A stretch of 64,000 nt of DNA, from positions 496,001-560,000 of the forward strand of contig NZ_RBKS01000001.1 in the NCBI RefSeq assembly GCF_003634555.1, written 5' to 3'. Source of the DNA: Frondihabitans australicus (GTDB taxonomy: Bacteria > Actinomycetota > Actinomycetes > Actinomycetales > Microbacteriaceae). Under the pieces are notes generated by a model. The model did no database searches and was not told the DNA's origin. It saw nothing but the letters and a program-made list of their open reading frames with translations. The translations under genes and the position numbers were made by a program. Shown piece by piece: positions 12,474 through 63,920 of this stretch; the first letter of the stretch is position 1; each line of letters begins with the position of its first letter.

Positions 12474-13139
12474 GTGCAGCGCTCTCGCCTCCGTTCCGCC
12501 CTCGTCGTCGTGGCGCTCGGCGCCGCCGCCGTGCTCGGCCTCGCCGGGTGCGCAGGAGCCGGGGCGTCGTCCGCCGGCCCCACACCGACCCCCTCGCCCA
12601 CGGCCACGCACGACACCGACGCCGCCGGGCGAATCCAGGATCCGTCGTCGACCTCGCTCTCACAGGCCCCCGCCGCCGGCGTGGTGCCGACGCGCGTCTC
12701 GATCCCCGCGATCGGCGTGAACGCGGGCCTGCAGGATCTCGCGATCGCCGCCGACGGGTCGCTCAACCCGCCCGTCGGCGTCGTCGACGCCGGCTGGTAC
12801 GCCAAGGGCGTCGTGCCCGGCGCGGTCGGCCCGGCCGTGATCGCCGGGCACATCGACTCGACGACGCAGCCCGGCGTCTTCCTGCACCTGGCGAAGCTGG
12901 TGCCGGGCGACACCGTGACCGTGACGATGTCGTCGGGGTCGGTCGAGACCTGGAAGGTGTCGGGGTCGCGCGCGGCCCTCAAGACTGCCTTCCCGACCAG
13001 CGACGTCTACGGCACCAGCCCGACCCCGCAGCTCCGGCTCATCACCTGCGGCGGCACGTTCAACGCCGCGATCGGTCACTACAACGAGAACACGATCGTG
13101 TTCGCCGACCTGGTCTCGTCGACCGCCCCGACGAAGTAG
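12474..13139 (+). CDS. Class F-like sortase with lipoprotein-type signal
   Basis: 221 residues. The N-terminus has a lipobox 'LAGC' with Cys26, so the protein is probably a membrane-anchored lipoprotein. The sortase domain (about 70-215) has the catalytic His126 in 'AGHIDS' and Cys192 in 'LITCGGTF'. At the usual third catalytic position the sequence reads 'GHYNENTIVF', with Asn where an Arg is often found, so activity is uncertain. The GTG at 12474 lies 2 bp after the GH8 stop. Sortases transpeptidate surface proteins; no canonical LPxTG partner is encoded in the window. Confidence 0.8.
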   Translation: MQRSRLRSALVVVALGAAAVLGLAGCAGAGASSAGPTPTPSPTATHDTDAAGRIQDPSSTSLSQAPAAGVVPTRVSIPAIGVNAGLQDLAIAADGSLNPPVGVVDAGWYAKGVVPGAVGPAVIAGHIDSTTQPGVFLHLAKLVPGDTVTVTMSSGSVETWKVSGSRAALKTAFPTSDVYGTSPTPQLRLITCGGTFNAAIGHYNENTIVFADLVSSTAPTK

Positions 13140-52199: not shown

Positions 52200-52236
52200 C
52201 GGTCGACCCCTGACGGTCAGCCCCTGACGGTCAGTG
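52195..52236. repeat. Three 14-bp tandem repeats spanning two convergent stop codons
   Basis: Copies of CCTGACGGTC(A/G)(G/A)CC start at 52195, 52209 and 52223. The first contains the monooxygenase TGA, the last the MarR stop. Confidence 0.8.
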
Positions 52237-52695
52237 GCTGAGAGCTCCGAGGGCCCGCACGATGCCCGCGAGATCGTCCGACGGCAGCACTCCGAAGAAC
52301 GCCGCGTCGGCGGCCTCGACGGCACCGTTCGCCTGGTTCGCGAGCGCCACGCCCCGCTCGGTCGGCTCGAGCGCGACTGCCCGACCGTCGCCCGGATGCT
52401 TCGCACGGGTGACGAGCCCCTTCGCCTCGAGCGCCCGGACCACCTGCGACGTCATCATCACGTCGGTGCCCGCGTGGGCGGCGAGGTCGCGCTGCGTCAC
52501 CGGGGCGGCCACGCCGTCGAGGTCGGGCGCACGGTCGAGATACGCCAGCGACGCCAGCAGCACGAACTGCACGTGCGTCAGGTCGAACGGCGCGAGAGCG
52601 GCCCTGATCTGGCGCTGCCACACGTTCGTGACGCGCCAGAGGGCGAGGCCGGGGCTGCCGGCCGACTCCGGGAAGGCGGTCTCAAAGCGGGCCAT
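52231..52695 (-). CDS. MarR-family regulator
   Basis: 154 residues. Winged helix-turn-helix with 'LTHVQFVLLASLAYL', 'VTQRDLAAHAGTDVMMTSQVVRAL' and the wing 'RAKHPGDGRAVALEPTERG'. The ATG at 52695 overlaps the SRPBCC stop (TGATG); a GTG one codon upstream is possible. Co-translated with the SRPBCC gene, and a symmetrical TAAG-N4-CTTA element overlaps the -10 of this unit at 53189-53205, so autorepression is likely. Confidence 0.9.
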   Translation of the reverse strand: MARFETAFPESAGSPGLALWRVTNVWQRQIRAALAPFDLTHVQFVLLASLAYLDRAPDLDGVAAPVTQRDLAAHAGTDVMMTSQVVRALEAKGLVTRAKHPGDGRAVALEPTERGVALANQANGAVEAADAAFFGVLPSDDLAGIVRALGALSH

Positions 52696-53168
52696 CACGC
52701 CTCGGCCGGCGCGACGGCGGCGGGGCTCTCGCTCGAGTCGGTCAGCGGGGCGCCGTGCTCGGCGGCCGCGAACAGCTCCGCCAGGGCGGCGGGGAAGTCG
52801 GCGCTGATCTGCGGGCCGAGTTCGGGCGCGACGCTGTCGGATCCTGCGCCGTCGATGACGAGGGTGTGGGTGACAGTCGTGCCGCCGCCGGGCAGGGGTG
52901 CGAGGTCGTGCCGGAAGGCGAGGGTGATGTCGCCGTAGACGGTGACGTCGGCGTAGACGCGCTCAGGTTCGACGTGGGTGATGGTGGACTCCATGGGATC
53001 CTGCCCCTGCGGAGTCACGGTGAGCGTGGTGCCGACGGCGAACGGGCCGTGCAGCTCGAACGTGTCGGACTCGGGGCCGATCTTCGTGCCCGAGTGCAGC
53101 GCCTCGATCATCGCCCACACAGCGGCGGGTGAGGCGGTGGTGGTGCCGGTGTGCGAGGTGGTCCACAT
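52695..53168 (-). CDS. SRPBCC-superfamily (START-like) protein
   Basis: 157 residues forming one helix-grip cavity: 'MWTTSHTGTTTASPAAVWAMIE', 'ESTITHVEPERVYADVTVYGD' and 'GGGTTVTHTLVIDGAG' strands, then a C-terminal helix. The family binds hydrophobic ligands; no catalytic residues are evident. The pairing with a MarR regulator suggests a ligand-responsive unit. ATG at 53168 with GGGAGAA upstream. Confidence 0.85.
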   Translation of the reverse strand: MWTTSHTGTTTASPAAVWAMIEALHSGTKIGPESDTFELHGPFAVGTTLTVTPQGQDPMESTITHVEPERVYADVTVYGDITLAFRHDLAPLPGGGTTVTHTLVIDGAGSDSVAPELGPQISADFPAALAELFAAAEHGAPLTDSSESPAAVAPAEA

Positions 53169-53286: not shown

Positions 53287-54387
53287 TCAGGCGGCAGGAG
53301 CCGGCGCGGCCGCGTTCACGAGAGGGATGACGCGCCGCCCGAACGTCTCGACGTCGGTGGTGAAGTCCGGGAACGACAGCACCGTCCGCCCCACCCCGCC
53401 GTCGGACTCGAGGTGGCGGAAGAACGCCGCCACCCGCTCGTACGACCCCACGAGGTGCGGGTGGAAGAGCGCCGGGTGGTACACGATCGCCGCCCGATCC
53501 TCGGGGAAGACCACCTCGGGGATGTCGTGCGTCAGCCCGTTGAGCCGGTTCGACGCGGTGCCGACGGTGTCGGCCTGCCCGGCGACGATGAGGCCCTGCG
53601 CGTTGTCGAAGTCGACCTCGCGGCAGATCTCGTAGAACTGCTCGATGGCCGCGTCGTCGGTCTCGGCCGCGATGACGCCGTAGAGCGCGGCGCTGTCGAC
53701 GTTCCTGCCGGTCTCGGCGGTCGCTGAGAGCAGCCCGGCGCGCGCCGCCTTCACCTCCTCGTAGGTGCCCTGCACGAAGTTGAAGTCGGCGTAGGCCGCG
53801 GTGATCGCCTGCGACTTCGCCGACAGGCCGGGCACGACGATCCGCACGCCGTGGGCCGGGCGGGGCTGCACGAGGCTGTCGTCGAGCTGGAAGAACTCGC
53901 TCTTCCGGTTCGAGCGGCCGGTGGCCCACAGCTCGAGCAGGATCCGGATGTACTCGCGGCTGTAGTCGTACCGCGACTCCATGTAGCCCTCGGGCCACAG
54001 CCCCATCTGGGCGTACTCGGCCTTGTTCCAGCCGGCGACGACGTTGAGCACGAAGCGCCCGCCCGACGCGTCGTCGTAGGTCGCGGCCATGCGCGCGGCC
54101 ATCGACGGGTGGAGGGTCGGGGCCGCCACGGAGCCCCAGATCTCGAGGGTCTTCGTCTCGGGGATCAGGAGCCCGGAGAGACCCATCGGGTCGAGGCTCT
54201 GATCCCAGAACCCGTCGCCGTTGCCGTAGCCGCGGAGCTTCGACATGTTGAGCAGGAACGTGTAGCCGGTCTCCTCCGCCACGTGGGCGATGTCGGTGTT
54301 CATCGCCACGGTCGGCGTGAAGGAGGGGACGGCCTTGGAGAGGATGTAGCCGTCGTTGGTCGTGGGCATGAAGATGCCGAAGTGCAT
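53287..54387 (-). CDS. Luciferase-like flavin monooxygenase, RutA-like
   Basis: 366 residues, the length of pyrimidine monooxygenase RutA. The middle matches RutA features: 'MSKLRGYGNGDGFWDQSLDP', 'SGGRFVLNVVAGWNKAEYAQMG' (in parts) and 'SRYDYSREYIRILLELWATG'. RutA opens the uracil ring with FMNH2 and O2, cutting an amide C-N bond. No other rut genes and no flavin reductase are visible nearby, so uracil is not assured as substrate; the surrounding genes point to aromatic or heterocyclic acid degradation. The gene is preceded by a possible short leader ORF and followed by a strong hairpin. Confidence 0.82.
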   Translation of the reverse strand: MHFGIFMPTTNDGYILSKAVPSFTPTVAMNTDIAHVAEETGYTFLLNMSKLRGYGNGDGFWDQSLDPMGLSGLLIPETKTLEIWGSVAAPTLHPSMAARMAATYDDASGGRFVLNVVAGWNKAEYAQMGLWPEGYMESRYDYSREYIRILLELWATGRSNRKSEFFQLDDSLVQPRPAHGVRIVVPGLSAKSQAITAAYADFNFVQGTYEEVKAARAGLLSATAETGRNVDSAALYGVIAAETDDAAIEQFYEICREVDFDNAQGLIVAGQADTVGTASNRLNGLTHDIPEVVFPEDRAAIVYHPALFHPHLVGSYERVAAFFRHLESDGGVGRTVLSFPDFTTDVETFGRRVIPLVNAAAPAPAA

Positions 54388-54435
54388 GGGGTGCCTTTCC
54401 TGGCGGGTGAGGGGGGTCGGGGGAGGAAAGGCGGT

Positions 54436-54525
54436 TCAGGTGCCGTGGGCGATCTGCCCGGTGCCCCAGGCCAGGTGCGCGCACGCCGACGGCAGCGTCG
54501 TCGGGTCGCCCGGTCGGGTGTTCAT
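54436..54525 (-). CDS. Possible 29-residue leader peptide
   Basis: An ATG at 54525, six bases after TATGTT, opens a 30-codon frame with one Cys ('PSACAHLAWGTG') and ends 48 bp before the RutA-like gene. The leaderless layout is the same as for real genes here. There is no homology I recognise. It could be a regulatory leader or simply chance. Confidence 0.4.
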   Translation of the reverse strand: MNTRPGDPTTLPSACAHLAWGTGQIAHGT

Positions 54526-54531
54526 GGTGTG

Positions 54532-54537
54532 AACATA
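54532..54537 (-). promoter_or_regulatory. Promoter -10 hexamer TATGTT of the leader/RutA-like unit
   Basis: On the minus strand TATGTT ends six bases before the ATG at 54525. It is the only convincing promoter between the hemerythrin gene and the RutA-like gene. Confidence 0.45.
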
Positions 54538-54583
54538 ACGAGCGTACGTTTCGACGCTGTTTCGCCAGCGCGAAAGTCGGGTT

Positions 54584-55264
54584 TCAGCTTCCGAGCGGCA
54601 GCTTCGCCCGAGCGCGACGCCACCGCGGCTCGAACACCGCCCGGTTGAGCAGGCGCACGGGTGCGGGGATGCGGCGGGTGAGCATCATGTACCGCGTCGA
54701 CGGCTCGGCGTACGACAGCATCCTCGGCAGGAGGTCGGCCATCTCGCGGGCGCCGAGCCCCTTCACCATGTCCTGCTCGAGGCGCGCCCATGCGGCGGGG
54801 GAGAGCCGCGTGGCGAAGAGCGGCGCCACCAGGGACTCCTCGCGCTCGAGGTGCTCGCCGACGATGCGCCCCAGCTCGTCGAGCTGGCGCACGAGCGCCG
54901 ATCTCTGCGCATCGAAGTCGGCGGCGTGGACGAGCGACGGCAGGTCGCGCGTCCGCTCGTCGACGGCGGCGAGTGTCCGCAGCACGGCGCTGTGATCGGC
55001 CTCCAGCTCGGCGAGGGCAGACGCCGCCTCGGGCGCGAGGGTGCGCAGCTGCGGCCAGATGCGGTGGTCCTCCGACTGCATGTGGTGCACGAGCGACGCC
55101 GAGAACGACGCCCACCACTTCGCCAGCGCCCACGCGGCCTGCGTGTCATCGCGCCGGAGCGCCAGCAGCTGGGCGCTCTGGTCACGGATCTCGCCGCGGA
55201 TCTGGTCGTGCACGAGCATCCAGCCGCGCACGTCGTTGTCATCGGCCCGCGTCTGCTCGACCAT
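54584..55264 (-). CDS. Hemerythrin/HHE cation-binding domain protein
   Basis: 226 residues. The first ~160 form a four-helix HHE domain with metal ligands spread as 'LVHDQIRGEI', 'SLVHHMQSEDHRIWPQL', 'ELEADHSAVL' and 'GEHLEREESLVAPLF'. The C-terminal ~60 residues are basic. Such proteins bind a di-iron centre and may sense oxygen, nitric oxide or iron. ATG at 55264 with GGGGAGG upstream; a good promoter is at 55310-55338. No obvious link to the catabolic genes beyond position. Confidence 0.85.
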   Translation of the reverse strand: MVEQTRADDNDVRGWMLVHDQIRGEIRDQSAQLLALRRDDTQAAWALAKWWASFSASLVHHMQSEDHRIWPQLRTLAPEAASALAELEADHSAVLRTLAAVDERTRDLPSLVHAADFDAQRSALVRQLDELGRIVGEHLEREESLVAPLFATRLSPAAWARLEQDMVKGLGAREMADLLPRMLSYAEPSTRYMMLTRRIPAPVRLLNRAVFEPRWRRARAKLPLGS

Positions 55265-55309
55265 GTCGCCTCCCCGGCGAAGGCCTTCGGGTGCCTCCGC
55301 CTGGCACGG

Positions 55310-55338
55310 ACGCTAACGGCGCCGCCACGTCATGCCAA
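55310..55338 (-). promoter_or_regulatory. Promoter of the hemerythrin gene
   Basis: On the minus strand -35 TTGGCA (55333-55338), 17-bp spacer, -10 TAGCGT (55310-55315), followed by an RBS-containing leader. Confidence 0.6.
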
Positions 55339-55389
55339 TACGCACAATCGCGTAGACGTGGCACCGTGGTGCGACGACCGTGGGAGGGG

Positions 55390-56040
55390 TCAGGCGGTCG
55401 CGCGCAGCTCGTCGATGACGCTCTGCAGCTGCGCGGCGGCCGCTGCGTCAGCGGCATCGGCATCGCCGGCGACGACGGCGTCGATGATGCTCAGGAGCTG
55501 AGGCAGCGACTGAGCGGGCCGCCCCGGCCGCATCGCCAGGCGGAACTGGAAGCGCACGACCTGCACGTTCAGCCGCTCCAGCTGCCTCGCCGCCACGACC
55601 TGCCCGCTGTACTCGATCACGAGGTCGTGCAGCCGTCGGTTGAGCGTCGAGTACGTCTCGACGGCGCCCTGCGCGACGGCCTCGCGGAGGCCGTCGCCCA
55701 CCGCCACGAGTGCGGCGCGCTGGGAGGGCGTCGCGAGGACTGCGGCCTTCCGCGCGCACAGCCGCTCCAGGGCCGACCGGCACTCGGTGATCTGCACGGC
55801 CTCGTCGACGCTGACCACGCGGATGCGGGCGCCCCGGTGCGGCACGAGCTCGACGACGTCGTCGGCGGCGAGGTCCGAGAGGGCCTCGCGGGCCGAGTTG
55901 CGGGTCACGCCGTACTGGTCCGCCAGATCCTGCTCGACCAGTCGCTGGCCGGGGACGAGCTCGCCGGCCCAGAGAGCTCGTCGGATCGCATCGGCCACGT
56001 GCGTGCGGCCGGCGGCGCCCTTGATCGCGGTGATGGTCAC
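55390..56040 (-). CDS. GntR-family regulator, FCD (FadR) subgroup
   Basis: 216 residues. N-terminal winged helix 'RRALWAGELVPGQRLVEQDLA' then 'YGVTRNSAREALSDLAADDVV'; C-terminal FCD helical domain with 'ALERLCARKAA' and the metal-ligand His in 'NRRLHDLVIEYSG'. FCD regulators respond to carboxylic acids or related metabolites. GTG at 56040 with ACAGGAG upstream. Divergent from the 4-oxalomesaconate hydratase operon; the TTGT-CA-ACAA palindrome in that operon's promoter fits this family, so it is the likely regulator of the cluster. Confidence 0.88.
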   Translation of the reverse strand: MTITAIKGAAGRTHVADAIRRALWAGELVPGQRLVEQDLADQYGVTRNSAREALSDLAADDVVELVPHRGARIRVVSVDEAVQITECRSALERLCARKAAVLATPSQRAALVAVGDGLREAVAQGAVETYSTLNRRLHDLVIEYSGQVVAARQLERLNVQVVRFQFRLAMRPGRPAQSLPQLLSIIDAVVAGDADAADAAAAAQLQSVIDELRATA

Positions 56041-56110
56041 GTCGGCTCCTGTCTCGTCCTGGTCATTCTGGCACGCGGCCGAAAAAATTCACGAAAAAAT
56101 CGCTGACAAG

Positions 56111-56140
56111 ATTGTCAACAATGTCGTCAACGAGTACCGT
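56111..56140 (+). promoter_or_regulatory. Promoter of the ligJ operon with embedded GntR operator
   Basis: -35 TTGTCA (56112-56117), 17-bp spacer, -10 TACCGT (56135-56140). The palindrome ATTGT-CA-ACAAT (56111-56122) covers the -35 box, so a bound regulator would block polymerase. Confidence 0.65.
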
Positions 56141-56169
56141 GGGTCGCATCGAGCGGCAAGGAGGCCCGG

Positions 56170-57195
56170 ATGATCATCGACTGCCACGGTCACTACACGA
56201 CGGCGCCGACTGCGCTGGGCGACTGGCGCGATCGTCAGATCGCCTCGCTCGAGCGCGGGGAGACCGCACCTGACCCGCGGTCTCTCCGCATCTCCGACGA
56301 CGAGATCCGCGAGTCGATCGAGGCGAACCAGCTTCGCCAGATGGATGCGCGCGGCATCGACGTCACCGTCTTCTCGCCCCGCGCCTCGTTCATGGCCCAC
56401 CACGTCGGCGGCTTCGAGACCTCGAGCGTCTGGGCGGCGATCTGCAACGACCTCTGCGCCCGCGTCGTCGCGCTCTACCCGACGAGGTTCGCCCTCGGCG
56501 CCATGCTGCCGCAGTCGCCCGGGGTCGACCCGGCGACCTGCCTGCCCGAGCTGGACCGCGCCGTCACCGAGCTGGGCGCCGTCGCCGTGAACCTCAACCC
56601 CGACCCGTCGGGCGGGCACTGGACGTCGCCGCCGCTCACCGATCGCTCGTGGTACCCGCTCTACGAGCGCCTGGTCGAGCTCGACGTGCCCGCGATGGTG
56701 CACGTGTCGACGAGCGTGAACCCCGCCTTCCACACCACCGGTGCGCACTACCTCAACGCCGACACGACCGCGTTCATGCAGCTCGTCGAGGGCGACCTGT
56801 TCCGCGACTTCCCGACCCTCCGCCTCGTGATCCCGCACGGCGGCGGGGCGGTGCCGTACCACTGGGGCCGGTTCCGCGGGCTCGCTCAGGCTCTGGGGAA
56901 GCAGGAGCTGCGGGAGCACCTGCTGGGCAACGTGTTCTTCGACACCTGCGTCTACCACCAGCCCGGCATCGACCTGCTCCTCGACGTGATCGGGCACGAG
57001 AACGTGCTCTTCGCCTCCGAGATGATCGGCGCCGTGCGCGGCGTCGACCCCGACACCGGCCACCACTTCGACGACACGCGACGCTACGTCGAGGCGGCGG
57101 ACCTCTCGCCGGAGGAGCTCGAGGCGATCGAGTCCGGAAACGCGCTGCGGGTCTACCCGAGGCTCGCGGCGGCACTTCAGAAGGAGACGGCATGA
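56170..57195 (+). CDS. ligJ: 4-oxalomesaconate hydratase (amidohydrolase superfamily)
   Basis: 341 residues. Opens 'MIIDCHGHYTTAPTALGDW' and contains 'DVTVFSPRASFMAHHVG', 'AVNLNPDPSGGHWTSPPLTD', 'FHTTGAHYLNADTTAFMQ', 'VIPHGGGAVPYHWGRFRGLA' and 'LFASEMIGAVRGVDPDTGHH', which together are the near-complete signature of LigJ/GalB-function hydratases. It hydrates 4-oxalomesaconate to 4-carboxy-4-hydroxy-2-oxoadipate (CHA), in the lower protocatechuate 4,5-cleavage or gallate route. RBS AAGGAGG. First gene of a four-gene overlapping operon. Confidence 0.93.
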   Translation: MIIDCHGHYTTAPTALGDWRDRQIASLERGETAPDPRSLRISDDEIRESIEANQLRQMDARGIDVTVFSPRASFMAHHVGGFETSSVWAAICNDLCARVVALYPTRFALGAMLPQSPGVDPATCLPELDRAVTELGAVAVNLNPDPSGGHWTSPPLTDRSWYPLYERLVELDVPAMVHVSTSVNPAFHTTGAHYLNADTTAFMQLVEGDLFRDFPTLRLVIPHGGGAVPYHWGRFRGLAQALGKQELREHLLGNVFFDTCVYHQPGIDLLLDVIGHENVLFASEMIGAVRGVDPDTGHHFDDTRRYVEAADLSPEELEAIESGNALRVYPRLAAALQKETA

Positions 57196-57893
57196 ACGAC
57201 ATCGGAGTGGTCCGCACCAGGATCACGCGCACCGACCCCGCGCTCGTCGACCGCCTGGCCGCGCTCGACGTGGCCACGGTCCACGAGGCGATGGGGCGCC
57301 GAGGGCTCATGCGGCCGTACCTGCGGCCGGTGTACCCGGGGGCGAGGCTCTGCGGGACGGCGGTCACCGTGCTCCTGCAGCCCGGAGACAACTGGATGAT
57401 GCACGTCGCGGCCGAGCAGGTGCGCCCGGGCGACGTGGTCGTCGCGGCGTGCACGACGGAGTCGGAGGACGGCTTCTTCGGCGAGCTGCTCGCCACGAGC
57501 ATGCGGGCTCACGGCGCGACCGGGCTCGTCGTCGACGGAGGCTGCCGCGACGTCGCCGAGCTCGAGGCCATGGACTTCCCGGTGTTCAGCCGCGCCGTCC
57601 ACGCCAAGGGCACGGTCAAGGCGACGCTCGGCTCGGTCAACGTGCCGGTGGTCTGCGGCAACGCCCTGGTGCATCCGGGCGACGTCGTGCTCGCCGACGC
57701 CGACGGGGTCGTCGTGATCCCGCGGGCCGAGGCCGCAGCCGTCGCCGACGCTGGCGAGAAGCGGCGCGACGACGAGGTCGGCAAGCGCGCCCGCCTCGCC
57801 GCCAGCGAGCTCGGCCTCGACATCTACTCCATGCGCGGCCCCCTCGAGGCTGCGGGACTCCGCTACATCGACGATCCGGAGGATCACGAATGA
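57192..57893 (+). CDS. ligK: 4-carboxy-4-hydroxy-2-oxoadipate aldolase/oxaloacetate decarboxylase (RraA-like fold)
   Basis: 233 residues. 'LDVATVHEAMGRRGLMRPYLR' and 'GLVVDGGCRDVAEL' (with the Arg-Asp of the active site) plus 'HPGDVVLADADGVVVIPR' are those of LigK/ProA/GalC aldolases, which split CHA into pyruvate and oxaloacetate. This is the step directly after LigJ. The ATG at 57192 overlaps the ligJ stop (ATGA) and the end overlaps the next gene in the same way. An acidic tail extends past the RraA core, as is usual for the aldolases. Confidence 0.92.
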   Translation: MNDIGVVRTRITRTDPALVDRLAALDVATVHEAMGRRGLMRPYLRPVYPGARLCGTAVTVLLQPGDNWMMHVAAEQVRPGDVVVAACTTESEDGFFGELLATSMRAHGATGLVVDGGCRDVAELEAMDFPVFSRAVHAKGTVKATLGSVNVPVVCGNALVHPGDVVLADADGVVVIPRAEAAAVADAGEKRRDDEVGKRARLAASELGLDIYSMRGPLEAAGLRYIDDPEDHE

Positions 57894-58753
57894 CGACCTT
57901 CACCGACGCGCACACGCACGTCATCTCGACCGATTTCGACGCCTACCCGCGCGACCCGATCGGCGGAAAGCAGTCGACCTGGTCCGAGGAGCACCCCGTC
58001 GACGTCGACGGCCTCCTCGCCGCCATGGACGCGGCCGGCGTCGCCCAGGCCGTCGCAGTCCAGGCCTCGACCGTCTACGGCCACGACAACCGCTACCTCG
58101 CAGCCTCTGTCGCGGCCCACCGCGACCGCCTCGTCGGCGTCTACTCGCTCGACGCGATGGCCCCCGACGCGGTCGCCACGATCCAGCGCTGGCAGGAGGC
58201 GGGCCTGAACGGCTTCCGCCTCTTCACCACCGGCACGACGATGCCCGGCCAGGCCGACTGGCTGGGCCACCCCGACTCGTACCCGGCGTGGGCGTACGCC
58301 GAAGAGCACGGAATCCCGGTCTGCCTCCAGATGACGATCGACGGCATCCCCGCCCTCCAGAAGACCCTCGAGAGGTACCCAGGATCGCGAGTGGTTCTCG
58401 ACCACTGCGCCCGCCCCGACCTCTCCGACGGAGCCCCGTACCGCACGTCGCACGGCCTGTTCGACCTCGCGGCCTTCGACGGCGTCCACCTGAAGCTGAC
58501 CCACCGCGCGATCGGCGCCGCTGCGAAGGGGGCCTCGACCGTCGAGGCGTTCCTCGACGCGCTGCTGTCGACCTACGGGTCGTCGAGGCTCATGTGGGGC
58601 TCGAACTTCCCGGCCGCCGACGGCTCGCTCGCGTCGCTCGTCAAGGAGGGGCGCGAGTCGCTCGCCTTCCTCGACGACGCCGATGCCGCGAACGTCTTCG
58701 GCGGCACGGTGCGGCGCTTCTACGCGATGGCGGAGGCGAGCGCGAATGTCTGA
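57890..58753 (+). CDS. Amidohydrolase-2 family lactonase (2-pyrone-4,6-dicarboxylate hydrolase-like)
   Basis: 287 residues. TIM-barrel amidohydrolase with 'FTDAHTHVIS' (HxH), 'VVLDHCARPDLSDG' (His/Cys region) and 'RLMWGSNFPAADGS' (final Asn/Asp). The group includes LigI (2-pyrone-4,6-dicarboxylate to 4-oxalomesaconate) and related lactonases. LigI would feed directly into LigJ, so that assignment is attractive, but the substrate loops cannot be judged by eye. ATG at 57890 overlaps the ligK stop by 4 bp. Confidence 0.8.
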   Translation: MTTFTDAHTHVISTDFDAYPRDPIGGKQSTWSEEHPVDVDGLLAAMDAAGVAQAVAVQASTVYGHDNRYLAASVAAHRDRLVGVYSLDAMAPDAVATIQRWQEAGLNGFRLFTTGTTMPGQADWLGHPDSYPAWAYAEEHGIPVCLQMTIDGIPALQKTLERYPGSRVVLDHCARPDLSDGAPYRTSHGLFDLAAFDGVHLKLTHRAIGAAAKGASTVEAFLDALLSTYGSSRLMWGSNFPAADGSLASLVKEGRESLAFLDDADAANVFGGTVRRFYAMAEASANV

Positions 58754-59648
58754 GTCGAGAGACGAGTCGCCGATCCTGCGGATGGCGCTCGGGAAGCACG
58801 AGATCGCCCGCCTGCTGCGCGACCGCGAGATCACCGACCCGGGTGTGCGCTTCGACTTCGCCGACGTCGAGCCGATCCACAGGGCGTTCGCGCCGATGGT
58901 GCGCGAGCAGGCGTTCGACGTGTCGGAGCTCGCCATCGTCACGGCCCTCCAGGCGATCGCCTACGACCACCCGATCGCGCTGCTGCCGGTCGTCGTGGCG
59001 GGGCGCTTCCAGCGCAAGTGCCTCATCTCGCACGCGTCGAACCCGATCCGCGACGCCCGAGAGCTCGTCGGGAAGACCGTCGGGGTGCGGTCGTACACGC
59101 AGACGACGGGCTTCTGGATCCGGTCGCACCTCGCCGAGGACTACGGGGTCGCCGCCTCCGACATCACCTGGATCACCCAGGACGAGCCGCACGTGCCCGA
59201 GGCGGTCGAGCCGTCGTTCGTGCACCGCACCCTCGAGCGCCCCCTCGTCGACGCGCTGCGCGACGGCGAGATCGACGCGGCGATCCTCGGCAACGACCTG
59301 CCGAGCGGCGACGAGTGGGTGCCGGTCATCGACCACGCCGCCGACCGCGACCACGCGTGGGCGCTGAAGCACGGCTACGTGCCGATCAACCACCTCGTCT
59401 CGGTCTCGCTGACGGCGCTCGACGAGCACCCCGAGGCCGTGGCTCGCACGCTGGGCCTCCTCGAGCGGGCCGACGCGAAGGCCTCCGAGTCGCAGGATCT
59501 GCCCGTCACCCTCGCCGGGCTCGACCGCCTCCGAGGACCCGTCGACGAGATCGCCGCCGCCTGCCTCGCGCAGGGCATGCTTCCCCGCCCCGTCACGAGC
59601 GACGAGGTGTTCGCCCCCGTCAGCGAGCTGCTCGCGGCCCGGGCCTGA
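58746..59648 (+). CDS. 4,5-dihydroxyphthalate decarboxylase-like protein (periplasmic-binding-protein fold)
   Basis: 300 residues, no signal peptide, so cytoplasmic despite its binding-protein-like fold. 'FDVSELAIVTALQAIAYDHP', 'FQRKCLISHASNPIRDAREL' and 'HLAEDYGVAASDITWITQDE' align with the decarboxylase Pht5/PhtD group rather than with ABC-type lipoproteins. That enzyme turns 4,5-dihydroxyphthalate into protocatechuate; a related carboxylated substrate is possible here. The ATG at 58746 overlaps the previous gene by 8 bp, which sets the start. Confidence 0.75.
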   Translation: MSESRDESPILRMALGKHEIARLLRDREITDPGVRFDFADVEPIHRAFAPMVREQAFDVSELAIVTALQAIAYDHPIALLPVVVAGRFQRKCLISHASNPIRDARELVGKTVGVRSYTQTTGFWIRSHLAEDYGVAASDITWITQDEPHVPEAVEPSFVHRTLERPLVDALRDGEIDAAILGNDLPSGDEWVPVIDHAADRDHAWALKHGYVPINHLVSVSLTALDEHPEAVARTLGLLERADAKASESQDLPVTLAGLDRLRGPVDEIAAACLAQGMLPRPVTSDEVFAPVSELLAARA

Positions 59649-59655
59649 GCGCTTC

Positions 59656-59682
59656 GCAGGAGCCGGTGCCGCCGGCTCCTGC
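59656..59682 (+). terminator. Intercistronic hairpin formed by two opposed GCAGGAGC octamers
   Basis: GCAGGAGCCGG (59656-59666) and its exact complement (59672-59682) with a 5-base loop, 7 bp after the decarboxylase-like stop. It could end transcription or stabilise the operon mRNA before the symporter gene. Confidence 0.7.
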
Positions 59683-59745
59683 ACCCACCCCACCGCAACG
59701 ATCCCCGACGCGCCCCATCGCAGTGGCGCAGAGACGAGACAGAGA

Positions 59746-61131
59746 ATGTCCGCACAGATCGCATCCCCGGCCCCGGGCCGGGGTGGCCGCTTCAGCTTCA
59801 CGCAGCTGAACCCGTTCTCGAGGCCGCTCTACAAAGACCTCACCTTCCAGGTGCTCACCGGCATGGTTGTCGGCGTCCTCCTCGGCGTGTTCGTGCCGAA
59901 GGTCGGTCTCAACGTCAACGACGTGTCGACGATCTTCATCAACCTGATCCAGATGGTGGTGGGCCTGATCGTGTTCTGCACGGTCACGCTCGGCATCGCC
60001 AAGGTGCGCGACTTCGGCAAGGTCGGCCGCATCGCGATCAAGGCGATGGTCTACTTCGAGGTCATCACCACGTTCGCGCTGATCATCGGCCTGGTCACGA
60101 TCAACATCCTGCGACCCGGCGTGGGCCTCCACATCGACCCGTCGACGCTGTCGCAGAGCGCGAGCACCAAGGCGGCGACCAACGAATCGTTCGGCACGTT
60201 CGTGACGAGCCTCGTTCCGACGAGCGCCATCGGGGCGTTCTCGTCGGGGAACATTCTGCAGATCCTGATCTTCTCGGTGCTGTTCGGCTGCGGCGTCTCG
60301 GCCGTCGGCGAGAAGGCGGCGCCGCTCATCTCCGTCGTCGAGACCACGCAGTCGGCGCTGTTCTGGATGATCCGCCAGATCATGAAGCTCGCCCCGCTCG
60401 CCGCCTGCGCCGCCATCGCCTTCTCGGTCGCGACCTACGGCCTGCACACGCTGGTGTCGCTCGGCGCGCTCGTGCTCGAGTTCTTCCTCACCGTCGTGCT
60501 CTTCTTCGTGCTCGTGCTCTGGCCCGTGTCGCACTACGCCAACGTCAGCCTGCTGAAGCTCATGCGGTACATCCGCAACGAGCTGCTGCTCGTGATCGGC
60601 ACGTCGTCGTCCGAGAGCGTGTTCCCGCAGCTCACCGAGAAGCTCAAGAAGCTCGGCGTCAGCGACGAAGTCGTGGGCCTCGTGCTGCCGACGGCGTACA
60701 GCTTCAACCACGACGGCACGTGCCTGTTCTTCGCCGCGACGAGCGTGTTCCTGGCGCAGGCCACCGACACGCACCTCGGCTGGACGGGCCAGCTCACCCT
60801 GATGATCGTGCTCCTGCTCACGTCGAAGGGCGGGGCGGGGGTCGCAGGATCCTCGATCCCGATCCTCGCGCTGACGCTCGCCGCGACCCACATCATCCCC
60901 GTGGCCAGCGTCGCGCTGATCCTGGGCGTGCAGAAGATCATGTCGGCCGCGTTCGTCTTCGCGAACATCACCGGGAACTGCGTGGCGACGGTGGTGGTCG
61001 GCAAATGGGAGAAGGCGATCGACTGGGATCAGATGCATCGCGAGCTCGACGCGGGCTACGTCGAGCCGTCGGCCTTCACCCGGAAGGCCGACGAGACCGA
61101 GCAGGAGCAGCCGGCGCTCGTCTCGCAGTAG
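59746..61131 (+). CDS. DAACS-family symporter (DctA/GltP-like) with atypical binding site
   Basis: 461 residues. About eight membrane helices and two re-entrant hairpins. Hallmarks are 'GTSSSESVFPQL' (HP1 serine-rich), 'PTAYSFNHDGTCLFF' (TM7), 'LTSKGGAGVAGSS' (HP2) and 'ANITGNCVATVVVGKWE' (TM8). In DctA/GltPh TM8 has the pattern D..F.SEAR.LTN..GN, whose Arg binds the substrate carboxylate; here it is 'VQKIMSAAFVFANITGN', with Phe at the Arg position and Gln at the first Asp. The transported compound is therefore unlikely to be a normal C4-dicarboxylate and may be the cluster's growth substrate. Confidence 0.85.
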   Translation: MSAQIASPAPGRGGRFSFTQLNPFSRPLYKDLTFQVLTGMVVGVLLGVFVPKVGLNVNDVSTIFINLIQMVVGLIVFCTVTLGIAKVRDFGKVGRIAIKAMVYFEVITTFALIIGLVTINILRPGVGLHIDPSTLSQSASTKAATNESFGTFVTSLVPTSAIGAFSSGNILQILIFSVLFGCGVSAVGEKAAPLISVVETTQSALFWMIRQIMKLAPLAACAAIAFSVATYGLHTLVSLGALVLEFFLTVVLFFVLVLWPVSHYANVSLLKLMRYIRNELLLVIGTSSSESVFPQLTEKLKKLGVSDEVVGLVLPTAYSFNHDGTCLFFAATSVFLAQATDTHLGWTGQLTLMIVLLLTSKGGAGVAGSSIPILALTLAATHIIPVASVALILGVQKIMSAAFVFANITGNCVATVVVGKWEKAIDWDQMHRELDAGYVEPSAFTRKADETEQEQPALVSQ

Positions 61132-61146
61132 CGGCCGGCGCCCGGC

Positions 61147-62457
61147 TCAGAACGACCGCAGGTTCTCCCGCAGGGTCGTGTGCGCGTACGAGGTGCGCAC
61201 GACCCCGCGGCGCTGCAGCGCCGGCACGAGCCCGTTCGTGATGTCGTTGATGTACTCGCGCGAGACCGGCTGGCCGAAGATCAAGAAGCCGTCGCCGCCG
61301 ACCTCCTGCATGAACTCGTCCATCTCGGCGGCCACGCTGTCGGGCGTGCCGACGAGCGGAACCGTCTCGATGCGCATGGCGCTCATGCCCTCGCGGATCG
61401 TGCGGCCGCCGAGCACCTTCCGCCAGATGTCGAGCTGGCCCTGGTGGCCGTTCGTCGTGACGTCGTCCGGCAGGGGCTGGTCGGGGTCGAACTGCAGGAA
61501 GTCGATCTCCATCGTGCCGGCCATGTGCGCCATCTGCAGCTCCATGGCGTGCTGCTTGTCGGCGAACCAGCGGTCGCGCTTCTCGCGGGCGAGCTCCATC
61601 GTCTCGGCGAGGATCGGCTGGATCACGGGGAAGATCTTGATCTCGTCAGGATCCCGGCCCATCGCCTCGGCGCGCCGACGCACGTCGGCCCGGTACTCCT
61701 TCGCGCCCTCCACGCCGTTCGGGATCGTCAGGATCACGTCGCTGTTCGCCGCCGCGAAGTCGCGGCCCTTCGGCGACGAGCCGGCCTGGCAGAACACGGG
61801 GCGGCCGCCGGGCCCGGCCGGCAGATTCAGGGGCCCACGCGACTTGTAGAACCGGCCCTCGTGGTTCACCTCGTGCACCTTGGTGTGGTCGGCGTAGTAG
61901 CCGGTCTCGGGGTCGGCGACGATCGCGTCGGGCTCCCACGACGCCCAGAGCTTCTTGGCCACGTCGACGAACTCGGCCGCCATCTCGTAGCGGAGGTCGT
62001 GCTCGGGCAGCACGTCGAGGCCGTAGTTCTGCGCGGCGAGGTCCTCGCTCGAGGTGACGATGTTCCAGCCGATGCGGCCCTGGGTGATGTTGTTGAGCGT
62101 CGCGAACTGCCGAGCCAGGTGCCACGGGTGGTAGAACGTCGTCGACGCGGTGGCGATGATGCCGATCCGCTCGGTCGCCTCGGCGAGCATCGACGCCGTG
62201 ACCACCGGATCCATCTTCGGCGCGTAGACCGCGTGCTTCAGCTCCATCTCCATGTCGCCGCCGAGCACGTTCGGCACCATGAGCGAGTCCTCGATCATGA
62301 TGAAGTCCATGCACGCCTTCTCCATGGCGCGCACCATGTCGACGTGGAACCGGCCCGAGAAGAAGTTCTCGACCGGGTCGTTGCCGCGGAAGGCGGTGTT
62401 CCAGTTCGGTGCGGTGAGGTTGGCGAACCAGCCGAGGCGGAAGGGATCAGCAGACAT
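61147..62457 (-). CDS. NtaA/SnaA/DszA-type flavin monooxygenase 1
   Basis: 436 residues from the ATG at 62457 ('SADPFRLGWFANL'). Luciferase-like TIM barrel with 'GRIGWNIVTSSEDLAAQNYG', 'PVFCQAGSSPKGRDFAA' and 'AMRIETVPLVGTPDSVAAEM'. This group uses FMNH2 supplied by a separate reductase to oxidise N- or S-containing or aromatic substrates. It is paralogous to, and divergent from, the gene at 62604. A CACACT hexamer lies six bases before the ATG. An in-frame extension to 62580 is not supported by RBS or conservation. Confidence 0.88.
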   Translation of the reverse strand: MSADPFRLGWFANLTAPNWNTAFRGNDPVENFFSGRFHVDMVRAMEKACMDFIMIEDSLMVPNVLGGDMEMELKHAVYAPKMDPVVTASMLAEATERIGIIATASTTFYHPWHLARQFATLNNITQGRIGWNIVTSSEDLAAQNYGLDVLPEHDLRYEMAAEFVDVAKKLWASWEPDAIVADPETGYYADHTKVHEVNHEGRFYKSRGPLNLPAGPGGRPVFCQAGSSPKGRDFAAANSDVILTIPNGVEGAKEYRADVRRRAEAMGRDPDEIKIFPVIQPILAETMELAREKRDRWFADKQHAMELQMAHMAGTMEIDFLQFDPDQPLPDDVTTNGHQGQLDIWRKVLGGRTIREGMSAMRIETVPLVGTPDSVAAEMDEFMQEVGGDGFLIFGQPVSREYINDITNGLVPALQRRGVVRTSYAHTTLRENLRSF

Positions 62458-62591
62458 GGGTCGAGTGTGGGGGAGCGGGGTTTCTGTGCCGCAACGCGTG
62501 GATTCCGCCGGGGTTACGCCGATCCTGCGCCCGTGATCGCACCACGCCGAGACTTTTACGGCGGCGCAATGGCGGCGCAAATGCGCGTCGG

Positions 62592-62597
62592 TACCGT
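62592..62597 (+). promoter_or_regulatory. Leaderless promoter -10 hexamer TACCGT
   Basis: TACCGT ends six bases before the ATG at 62604. Confidence 0.55.
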
Positions 62598-62603
62598 CTG
62601 GTC

Positions 62604-63920
62604 ATGTTCAAACTCGGTTGGTTCGTGAACGGCTTCGCACCCAAGACCTGGCACGGCCCCTGGGCGGGTGAGAACCGCACGGAGTGGATGGGGCCCGGCT
62701 TCTGGCAGGACGTCGCCCGCGGCCTCGAGCGCGGCGGATTCGACATGTTCTTCCTGGAGGACACCGCCATGATCGAGGACACCTACGAGGGCTCCGCCGC
62801 TTACACGCTGCGGCACGCCGCCATGGCGCCGAAGAACGACCCGATGCCCCTGATGCCTCTGCTCGCGGCCGCGACGAAGCACATCGGCCTGGTGTCGACG
62901 ATCTCGACGATCCAGTACCCGCCGTATCTGGCCGCCCGACTCGGCACGACGCTCGACCACCTCACCGAGGGCAGGATCGGCTTCAACGTCGTCACGAGCG
63001 TCAGCCATCGGGTCGCGCAGAACTACGGCTACGAGCGCCACCTCGAGCACGACGAGCGTTACGTGATGGCCGAGGAGTGGATGGACGCCGTCTCGCAGCT
63101 CTGGGAGTCGTGGGAGCCGGACGCCCTCGTGCTCGAGACCGACCCGCCGTTCTTCGCCGACCACACGAAGGTGAAGGCCGTCGACTTCGAGGGGAAGTAC
63201 TTCCGCACCCGCGGCCCGCTCAACACCGTGCCGGGGCCGCAGCGACGCCCGGTGATCGCGCAGGCCGGCGGCTCGCCGAAGGGTCGAGACCTCGCCGCGC
63301 GCAACGCCGACGTCATGCTCGGGCTCGTGCAGAGCCCGGAGGAGATGGTGGAGTTCCGCGCGGACATGGACCGCCGCCTCGCCGCCTTCGGCCGCGACCC
63401 CGACGACCTGCACATCTTCTTCATGGCGCACGCCTACATCGGCGAGAGCGACCGCGACGGCCGGGAGCGCTTCGACGCCGTGGCCGCCTCACGCCACGAT
63501 CCGTCGGCGATCGCGGCCAAGCTCTGGGCGATGTCGTACACCTCCGGCGGCGAGATCGACTTCTCGAAGTTCGACCTCGACGGCCCCGTGCCGACTCGCC
63601 TGGGGAATGGCGAGACCACCACGCACAAGGCCTGGACGGCCGCAGGAGCCGGCAAGACCCTGCGCGACGTCGTCACCGGCCCCGCCAACTACGGCCTCGA
63701 CTTCGTGGGGTCCGCCGCGACGATCGCCTCGCAGATGGACGAGGTCATGCGGGCGACCGGACGCATGGACGGGTTCCTGATCCAGGGCATCGAGGACGAG
63801 CTGACCCGGCGCTCCCTCGCCGAGGTCACCGACGGCCTGTGCCCCGAGCTGAAGCGCCGCGGCCTGATCCGGAAGTCGTACGAGCACGACACCTTCCGCG
63901 AGAACCTCGAGTCCTGGTAG
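62604..63920 (+). CDS. NtaA/SnaA/DszA-type flavin monooxygenase 2
   Basis: 438 residues. 'GRIGFNVVTSVSHRVAQNYG', 'RPVIAQAGGSPKGRDLAARN' and the final 'LKRRGLIRKSYEHDTFRENL' parallel monooxygenase 1, so the pair arose by duplication. It differs mainly in the substrate-side loops ('MPLMPLLAAATKHIGLVSTI' and 'SGGEIDFSKFDLDGP'). Reduced flavin must come from elsewhere in the genome, since no reductase is visible. Leaderless ATG after TACCGT. A perfect palindrome begins 10 bp after the stop. Confidence 0.9.
   Translation: MFKLGWFVNGFAPKTWHGPWAGENRTEWMGPGFWQDVARGLERGGFDMFFLEDTAMIEDTYEGSAAYTLRHAAMAPKNDPMPLMPLLAAATKHIGLVSTISTIQYPPYLAARLGTTLDHLTEGRIGFNVVTSVSHRVAQNYGYERHLEHDERYVMAEEWMDAVSQLWESWEPDALVLETDPPFFADHTKVKAVDFEGKYFRTRGPLNTVPGPQRRPVIAQAGGSPKGRDLAARNADVMLGLVQSPEEMVEFRADMDRRLAAFGRDPDDLHIFFMAHAYIGESDRDGRERFDAVAASRHDPSAIAAKLWAMSYTSGGEIDFSKFDLDGPVPTRLGNGETTTHKAWTAAGAGKTLRDVVTGPANYGLDFVGSAATIASQMDEVMRATGRMDGFLIQGIEDELTRRSLAEVTDGLCPELKRRGLIRKSYEHDTFRENLESW

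Follow-up and report, generated by a model that had tools for sequence, protein, structure and literature searches.

What supplies the hydratase LigJ and the aldolase LigK in an operon that has no recognisable ring-cleavage dioxygenase? The question is raised by a 64-kb stretch of the Frondihabitans australicus genome (G000:C1:496001-560000, hereafter the window), in which a gntR|ligJ-ligK-ligI'-pht5'-dctA gene set lies between genes for luciferase-like monooxygenases (Table 1). The genome consists of one contig of 4,036,723 bases and is rated 100% complete. An earlier reading of the window (the original prediction) had suggested that these monooxygenases carry out the ring opening. We consider it likely, on balance, that the gene set is an operon by which a polycarboxylate is imported and broken down in a redox-neutral way and that the luciferase-like genes on both sides of it are neighbours; as part of this reading, the best explanation of the arrangement is that regulator, enzymes and symporter form one unit.

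An operon conserved without the monooxygenases

The LigJ and LigK types recognised in the original prediction hold at their places, the former by its matches to Protein Data Bank (PDB) structures and the latter by a score above the family cut-off. Along ligJ, ligK, ligI' and pht5' the genes overlap by 4, 4 and 8 bases, with the start codons set by a simple in-house gene caller that was also used for genes beyond the window (its implausible calls in locus L028 were set aside). The Pht5-related gene lies, as had been said, inside this overlapping run, and the symporter, called atypical in the original prediction, is of the SDF/DctA type, its gene starting after a gap of 97 bases 3' of pht5'. Of the LigI-like lactonase, what stands is an Amidohydro_2 gene in the overlapping operon; the protein is not a canonical LigI, since the general-base Asp is replaced by Asn.

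Table 1. The putative catabolic operon, its regulator and the adjoining genes, with positions in the window
Feature	Position	Strand	Support
LigJ, 4-oxalomesaconate/KCH hydratase	56170..57195	+	PDB 2gwg E 5e-166, 6dxq E 8e-145
LigK, 4-carboxy-4-hydroxy-2-oxoadipate (CHA) aldolase/oxaloacetate decarboxylase	57192..57893	+	TIGR02798 369.6 bits, cut-off 304.5 (searched from 57177)
LigI', COG3618-type amidohydrolase, Asn239 replacing LigI Asp248	57890..58753	+	Amidohydro_2
Pht5', 4,5-dihydroxyphthalate decarboxylase fold	58746..59648	+	AlphaFold2 (AF2) model, Foldseek 9jp7, profile match
DctA-type (SDF) dicarboxylate symporter	59746..61131	+	PF00375 E 5e-88; PRK01663 480.8 bits, below its cut-off of 513
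GntR/FCD-family regulator, divergent from operon	55390..56040	-	Pfam FCD 1e-21, GntR 3e-17
Palindromic candidate GntR operator in gntR-ligJ gap	56104..56117	.	inverted repeat
RutA-like luciferase-like monooxygenase (PF00296), probably outside operon	53287..54387	-	TIGR03612 270.9 bits, cut-off 498.3
Hemerythrin-domain protein, membership doubtful	54584..55264	-	PF01814 E 7e-12
NtaA/DmoA-family monooxygenase (PF00296), NtaA/Dpp island	61147..62457	-	TIGR03860 415.2 bits, cut-off 279.7
NtaA/DmoA-family monooxygenase (PF00296), island reaching past window	62604..63920	+	TIGR03860 378.1 bits

The unit recurs outside the family. A genome of the same class but of another family (G465) has gntR, ligJ, ligK, ligI', pht5' and dctA in identical order, with identities of 71% for GntR, 81% for LigJ, 78% for LigK, 66% for LigI', 55% for Pht5' and 65% for DctA, and around this operon no monooxygenase match was found at 1e-10 within the 31 kb searched. 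GntR homologues that are 71-76% identical adjoin ligJ in three loci, L074, L078 (a Streptomyces spinosisporus contig) and L084.

A broader comparison took in the best 80 of 162 relatives of ligI' with their surroundings, 28 of these loci being shorter than 20.5 kb, so that genes may sit further out. The pht5' gene is present in 77 of the 80 loci, dctA in 62, ligJ in 30, ligK in 27, and at least one of ligJ and ligK in 37. The monooxygenase queries were the five of this locus, so that dissimilar luciferase-family genes would escape, and they found matches in three loci (L102, L122 and L124), with identities of 28-37% and at distances of 6-9 kb; the same settings recovered the monooxygenases in three control loci known to carry them. 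In twenty stretches around ligJ, from 14 other genomes of the family, neither the monooxygenases nor LigI' nor Pht5' had a match at 1e-15. The genes ligI' and pht5' are closely coupled, 71 of 74 same-strand pairs lying within 60 bp of each other and 39 overlapping, while eight further LigI' genes have no same-strand Pht5' call.

We also clustered the neighbouring proteins of 84 loci (the 80 ligI' loci plus L002, L063, L064 and L065), labelling unnamed families by eye. The families present in more than ten of the 84 are LigI', Pht5', DctA, a LysR-like regulator, LigJ, LigK and two outer-membrane-like proteins, the LysR and porin labels being backed by the annotation of L063. None of these frequent families resembles an oxygenase, a dehydrogenase or a ligase, and for this reason the pathway is likely to be redox-neutral and to start from an imported acid.

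Second, diverged LigJ-like genes (40-41% identity, with one in-frame stop each) were seen in L024 (G117:C18) and L025 (G046:C2).

Absence of three oxygenase families

The complete genome gave no match to the LigB family (PF02900, E ≤ 0.1; LigA was not searched separately), to intradiol dioxygenases (PF00775, E ≤ 0.1) or to the Rieske alpha subunit (PF00848, E ≤ 0.01), and the same profile searches gave matches in 4, 7 and 4 of 14 control genomes, respectively. The absence of a LigAB-type dioxygenase, noticed earlier for the window, is thereby extended to the whole genome by the LigB search and joined by that of the other two families. Just outside the window, visual inspection of the genes called between 559.5 and 595 kb revealed no ligAB/ligC set, and there is no LigB match genome-wide. 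The operon itself has no LigC-type dehydrogenase (no genome-wide search covered the Gfo/Idh/MocA family).

Judged by the names LigJ, LigK, LigI and Pht5, the operon could belong to an ordinary phthalate or protocatechuate 4,5-cleavage pathway, in which Pht5 yields protocatechuate and the dioxygenase genes lie elsewhere in the genome; gene names alone would indeed misfile such an operon as phthalate or protocatechuate degradation. The order ligJ-ligK-ligI is that of canonical operons, both at L026/L027 and, according to PMC8431788, in the pca/pcm-type operon of Pseudarthrobacter Sphe3. A direct comparison is possible with two canonical operons found in the same family. The one at L026/L027 comprises ligJ and ligK, a LigI that has the Asp motif, a dioxygenase in which LigA and LigB are fused, and a dehydrogenase of the LigC type; that at L037 comprises ligK, a PrpF/LigU-family gene, ligJ, a LigI that likewise has Asp, LigA and LigB, and one more gene at the position of LigC. 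The window operon shares LigJ, LigK and the gene order with the protocatechuate operons, but it lacks LigAB and the LigC-type dehydrogenase, has a distant LigI paralogue with Asn for the catalytic Asp, and adds Pht5' and DctA. Moreover, the phthalate route through Pht5 starts with a Rieske alpha subunit, a kind of protein that the host genome lacks at the above threshold. With no Rieske, LigB or intradiol match, we reject the phthalate-protocatechuate route, which appears highly improbable.

LigI' and Pht5' depart from their namesakes

The AF2 model of LigI' (mean pLDDT 93.2) is nearest to the structures 2ffi, 4do7/4dlf and 4i6k and to LigI of Sphingomonas paucimobilis (4d8l/4dia; Foldseek E 2.6e-13 to 4d8l). 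Identity to LigI is 19-21% in the structural alignment, and a canonical LigI from the same family gives a local match only (24% over 109 amino acids). Our alignment of LigI' has 78 members and was restricted to sequences of 250-320 amino acids. In it, histidines of the LigI active site are retained, H8 and H10 in 77 of the 78 (one gap) and H172 in all of them, and LigI Arg124 has its equivalent in Arg110. The differences concern Asp248, which in LigI activates the hydrolytic water and which is Asn (Asn239) in 78 of 78 LigI' sequences, and Arg130, which pairs with Thr/Ser at the edge of a gap. As to the structures themselves, 4d8l shows Asp at position 248, and 4dia, titled as the D248N mutant, shows Asn. 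Because Asp248 is replaced and Arg130 is not kept while Arg124 is, LigI' probably binds a related carboxylate without performing LigI chemistry.

Pht5' (AF2 model, pLDDT 95.7) matches 4,5-dihydroxyphthalate decarboxylase (Pht5, PDB 9jp7) along the whole chain, with a TM score of 0.85 at 21% identity, the next different proteins reaching 0.54-0.56; the profile match to Pht5 has an E-value of 6e-38. In the profile alignment Glu61 and His216 are common to both proteins, whereas the invariant Arg115, His149 and Asn215 of Pht5' are unmatched in Pht5, several conserved residues thus being different. Pht5' might on this basis be a true decarboxylase, in which case a C8 polycarboxylate would be imported (a pyrone tricarboxylate or the lactone of an oxaloacetate dimer, for example), LigI' would act on the ring or lactone, Pht5' would remove CO2, and LigJ and LigK would finish the route. 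The marked lead of the decarboxylase fold and the two shared residues favour such a C8 route, the low identity and the three unmatched invariant residues argue against it, and to our knowledge no natural C8 substrate exists. We regard it as rather unlikely.

Related clusters contain more than one Pht5'. A second, actinobacterial cluster type with LigJ, LigI' and Pht5' paralogues is found in L070/L071 (G465:C66), L072 (G303:C32) and L073 (G368:C33), with three Pht5' paralogues each in L072 and L073, and four in L070/L071 together with a second LigI'. Among the paralogues, L071 has a thiamine pyrophosphate (TPP) enzyme and a DUF3500 protein, and in L072 an HpcH/HpaI aldolase adjoins LigJ. This multiplicity within clusters points to a diversification of the Pht5' family towards several steps or substrates. 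On a Paraburkholderia largidicola plasmid (L063), a porin gene comes after ligI'-pht5'-dctA, and neither ligJ nor ligK gave a match in the 29 kb covered; six Pht5-like places occur in this record.

A possible route from an imported acid

The identity of LigJ and LigK, the conservation of the unit, the absence of LigB, intradiol and Rieske matches, and the lack of a conserved linkage to monooxygenases are what sequence comparison supports; from these we infer the transport substrate, every reaction of LigI' and Pht5' and the compound that is degraded. DctA would import a small di- or tricarboxylic acid, which LigI' and Pht5' would turn, without redox chemistry, into the substrate of LigJ, either 4-oxalomesaconate or its isomer KCH. 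Hydration by LigJ would then give CHA, and cleavage of the latter by LigK would release pyruvate and oxaloacetate.

As the acid itself we tentatively propose 2-pyrone-4,6-dicarboxylate (PDC), which gives the best fit to the enzyme set and to the atom balance (C7H4O6 + 2 H2O = C7H8O8 = pyruvate + oxaloacetate). The four enzymes would account for four steps, namely opening of the lactone, isomerisation, hydration and an aldol cleavage, with LigI' and Pht5' replacing LigI and LigU. Ring opening and isomerisation could each be the work of either protein; alternatively, Pht5' could be the decarboxylase of a C8 precursor discussed above. The LigU/PrpF family (PF04303) gave no match in the genome at E ≤ 0.01, a weak test, as the genes listed for the canonical operon at L026/L027 include none nearby either. 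Its lack in this genome and in five of the 26 carrier genomes lends weak support to a replacement of LigU by LigI' and Pht5'. We had considered it as strong evidence for an isomerase function of Pht5', an argument weakened by the PrpF/LigU-family gene of the other 21 carriers and by the canonical operon without one nearby.

An outside supply of PDC exists, since the compound is present in plants: according to PMC9415522, contents of 0.1-2% are reported for genera of the Rosoideae, and in strawberry the compound makes up 1-1.7% of the dry leaf. PDC, which occurs in some plants, is also a polymer building block obtained from engineered bacteria. A wider proposal, likewise tentative, is that of a widespread, hitherto undescribed and oxygen-independent operon, found in actinobacteria and proteobacteria, which would scavenge free PDC from plants or lignin degraders and in which a LigI paralogue with a fixed Asp-to-Asn change and an enzyme of the substrate-binding-protein fold would perform ring opening and isomerisation. 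Were this so, the operon would supply the transporter along with two enzyme activities that are new, and it would explain why Asp has invariably become Asn. Should the substrate be another acid, the operon would still open a way into the 4-oxalomesaconate pathway that bypasses the usual dioxygenase.

Several points weigh against these proposals. The genome-wide absence of dioxygenases covers the LigB, intradiol and Rieske kinds, and VOC-type extradiol and cupin families were not searched. Neither ligJ nor ligK occurs in 43 of the 80 loci, within the stretch available, and LigI' and Pht5' may therefore feed other lower pathways. Neighbour families seen in three or four loci include proteins that resemble, by eye, aldehyde dehydrogenases, short-chain dehydrogenases/reductases (SDR) and CoA-transferases. 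Many carriers could also run the classical pathway, as a PrpF/LigU-family gene is present in 21 of 26 and a PF02900 protein of some kind in every one of the 26; these exceed 200 bits in six genomes, many of the matches are confined to the central part of the profile, and those of at most 200 bits in the other 20 carriers we tentatively take to be YgiD-like proteins. The absence of LigU says little in itself, given that the canonical operon at L026/L027 shows no ligU among its listed genes. As judged from the aligned residues, Asn in place of Asp248 and Thr/Ser at Arg130 make hydrolysis of PDC by the LigI mechanism unlikely, and the decarboxylase fold closest to Pht5' would point to a C8 substrate.

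Among the top matches of an open-access literature search, judged by title and abstract opening, we found no description of the operon and no dedicated uptake-and-degradation system for free PDC. This agrees with the expectation, voiced in the original prediction, that the full route would be new, although subscription literature lies largely outside such a search and novelty is unproven. A similar ending by hydrolysis, hydration and aldol cleavage, with genes named differently, is described for riboflavin catabolism in PMC12746152, and the accessible part of PMC9241852 mentions homologues of ligJ and ligK from a Sodalis, giving no substrate.

Regulator and flanking monooxygenases

The gntR gene, which had gone unmentioned in the original prediction, is located between the operon and the RutA-like gene; in the gap that separates gntR from ligJ there is a palindromic candidate operator. 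Its pattern recurs with one or two mismatches in the gntR-ligJ gap of L074, L078 and L084, with between 0 and 6 of 2000 shuffles being equally good. At up to three mismatches there are 8 matches versus 2.1 expected, for a pattern that was derived from the window itself; those outside the gntR-ligJ gap are at 12922, 35324 and 43950, none of them near the monooxygenases. Upstream of the RutA-like, hemerythrin, NtaA-like, DppA and dctA genes, operator matches are no better than chance, the best ones 5' of the monooxygenase genes having 5-6 mismatches. A single regulon including the monooxygenases is rejected on these grounds, within the limits of a pattern drawn from the window.

The one RutA-like and two NtaA-like enzymes of the original prediction are present as PF00296 proteins, a family with 28 matches in the genome, but the first scores below the RutA cut-off and the NtaA-like genes number four in total. 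The two additional ones lie past the window edge (TIGR03860, 412.6 and 407.7 bits versus 279.7) together with genes for a Dpp-type ATP-binding cassette (ABC) transporter and for another GntR regulator, and because of these neighbours the NtaA-like genes most likely form a separate island with its Dpp transporter. In exceeding the TIGR03860 cut-off and adjoining Dpp-type genes they resemble known modules of NtaA/DmoA/DszA/MoxC flavin mononucleotide (FMN) monooxygenases with Dpp ABC genes; this module adjoins the ligJ operon but is not conserved with it. NtaA/DmoA and Dpp-type modules are found elsewhere in the same genome (L166, G000:C1:104000-123000) and in the genus-mates G201 and G246. The operon is thus very probably separate from the NtaA-like genes.

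For the RutA-like gene, where the evidence is thinner, separation from the operon is probable. Under strict limits (at most eight candidates scored per family genome and at most five per class genome), its sole match was itself, both at E ≤ 1e-90 in 249 genomes of the family and at E ≤ 1e-85 in 394 genomes of the class. Lacking a close homologue, the gene is by conservation neither tied to the operon nor excluded from it. Homologues on plasmids reach 37.7% identity at best, many of them annotated as rutA. The context on Arthrobacter pSI-1, which we opened, is unlike this locus. A Rhodococcus plasmid carries a 35% identical RutA-like gene in the midst of Dpp-type genes, together with an NtaA-like gene but without ligJ, a hint that RutA-like genes go with NtaA/Dpp islands.

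These observations bear on the flavin-dependent opening advanced in the original prediction, by which RutA-like and/or NtaA-like enzymes would convert an aromatic or N-heteroaromatic dicarboxylate to 4-oxalomesaconate. As an example of such chemistry, opening of 6-hydroxypyridine-2,4-dicarboxylate would lead to 2-amino-4-carboxymuconate and from there, by hydrolysis, to 4-oxalomesaconate and ammonia. Physical adjacency, the similarity to RutA and a genome devoid of LigB-type or intradiol matches are in favour of this route, and a joint arrival is possible, as the five other members of the genus that were searched have neither ligJ (none at E ≤ 1e-60) nor a close homologue of the RutA-like gene. 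It is opposed by the recurrence of the operon without monooxygenases, both in G465 and in the 77 of 80 loci that have no related one, by the NtaA/Dpp modules of genus-mates without ligJ, by the Rhodococcus arrangement and by operator matches at chance level upstream of the monooxygenases. We therefore consider flavin-dependent opening improbable and retain the redox-neutral operon as the more likely reading.

Between the RutA-like gene and gntR lies a hemerythrin-domain gene, also unmentioned before, which has no match in the 80 ligI' loci. Two small adjacent minus-strand genes occupy positions 52231-53168 of the window, that at 52695-53168 being without an NCBIfam match at 1e-10. The G201 stretches have no regulator match, and L002:510-9490 and L166 each combine several NtaA/DmoA-like genes with Dpp-type ABC genes and a GntR-type regulator.

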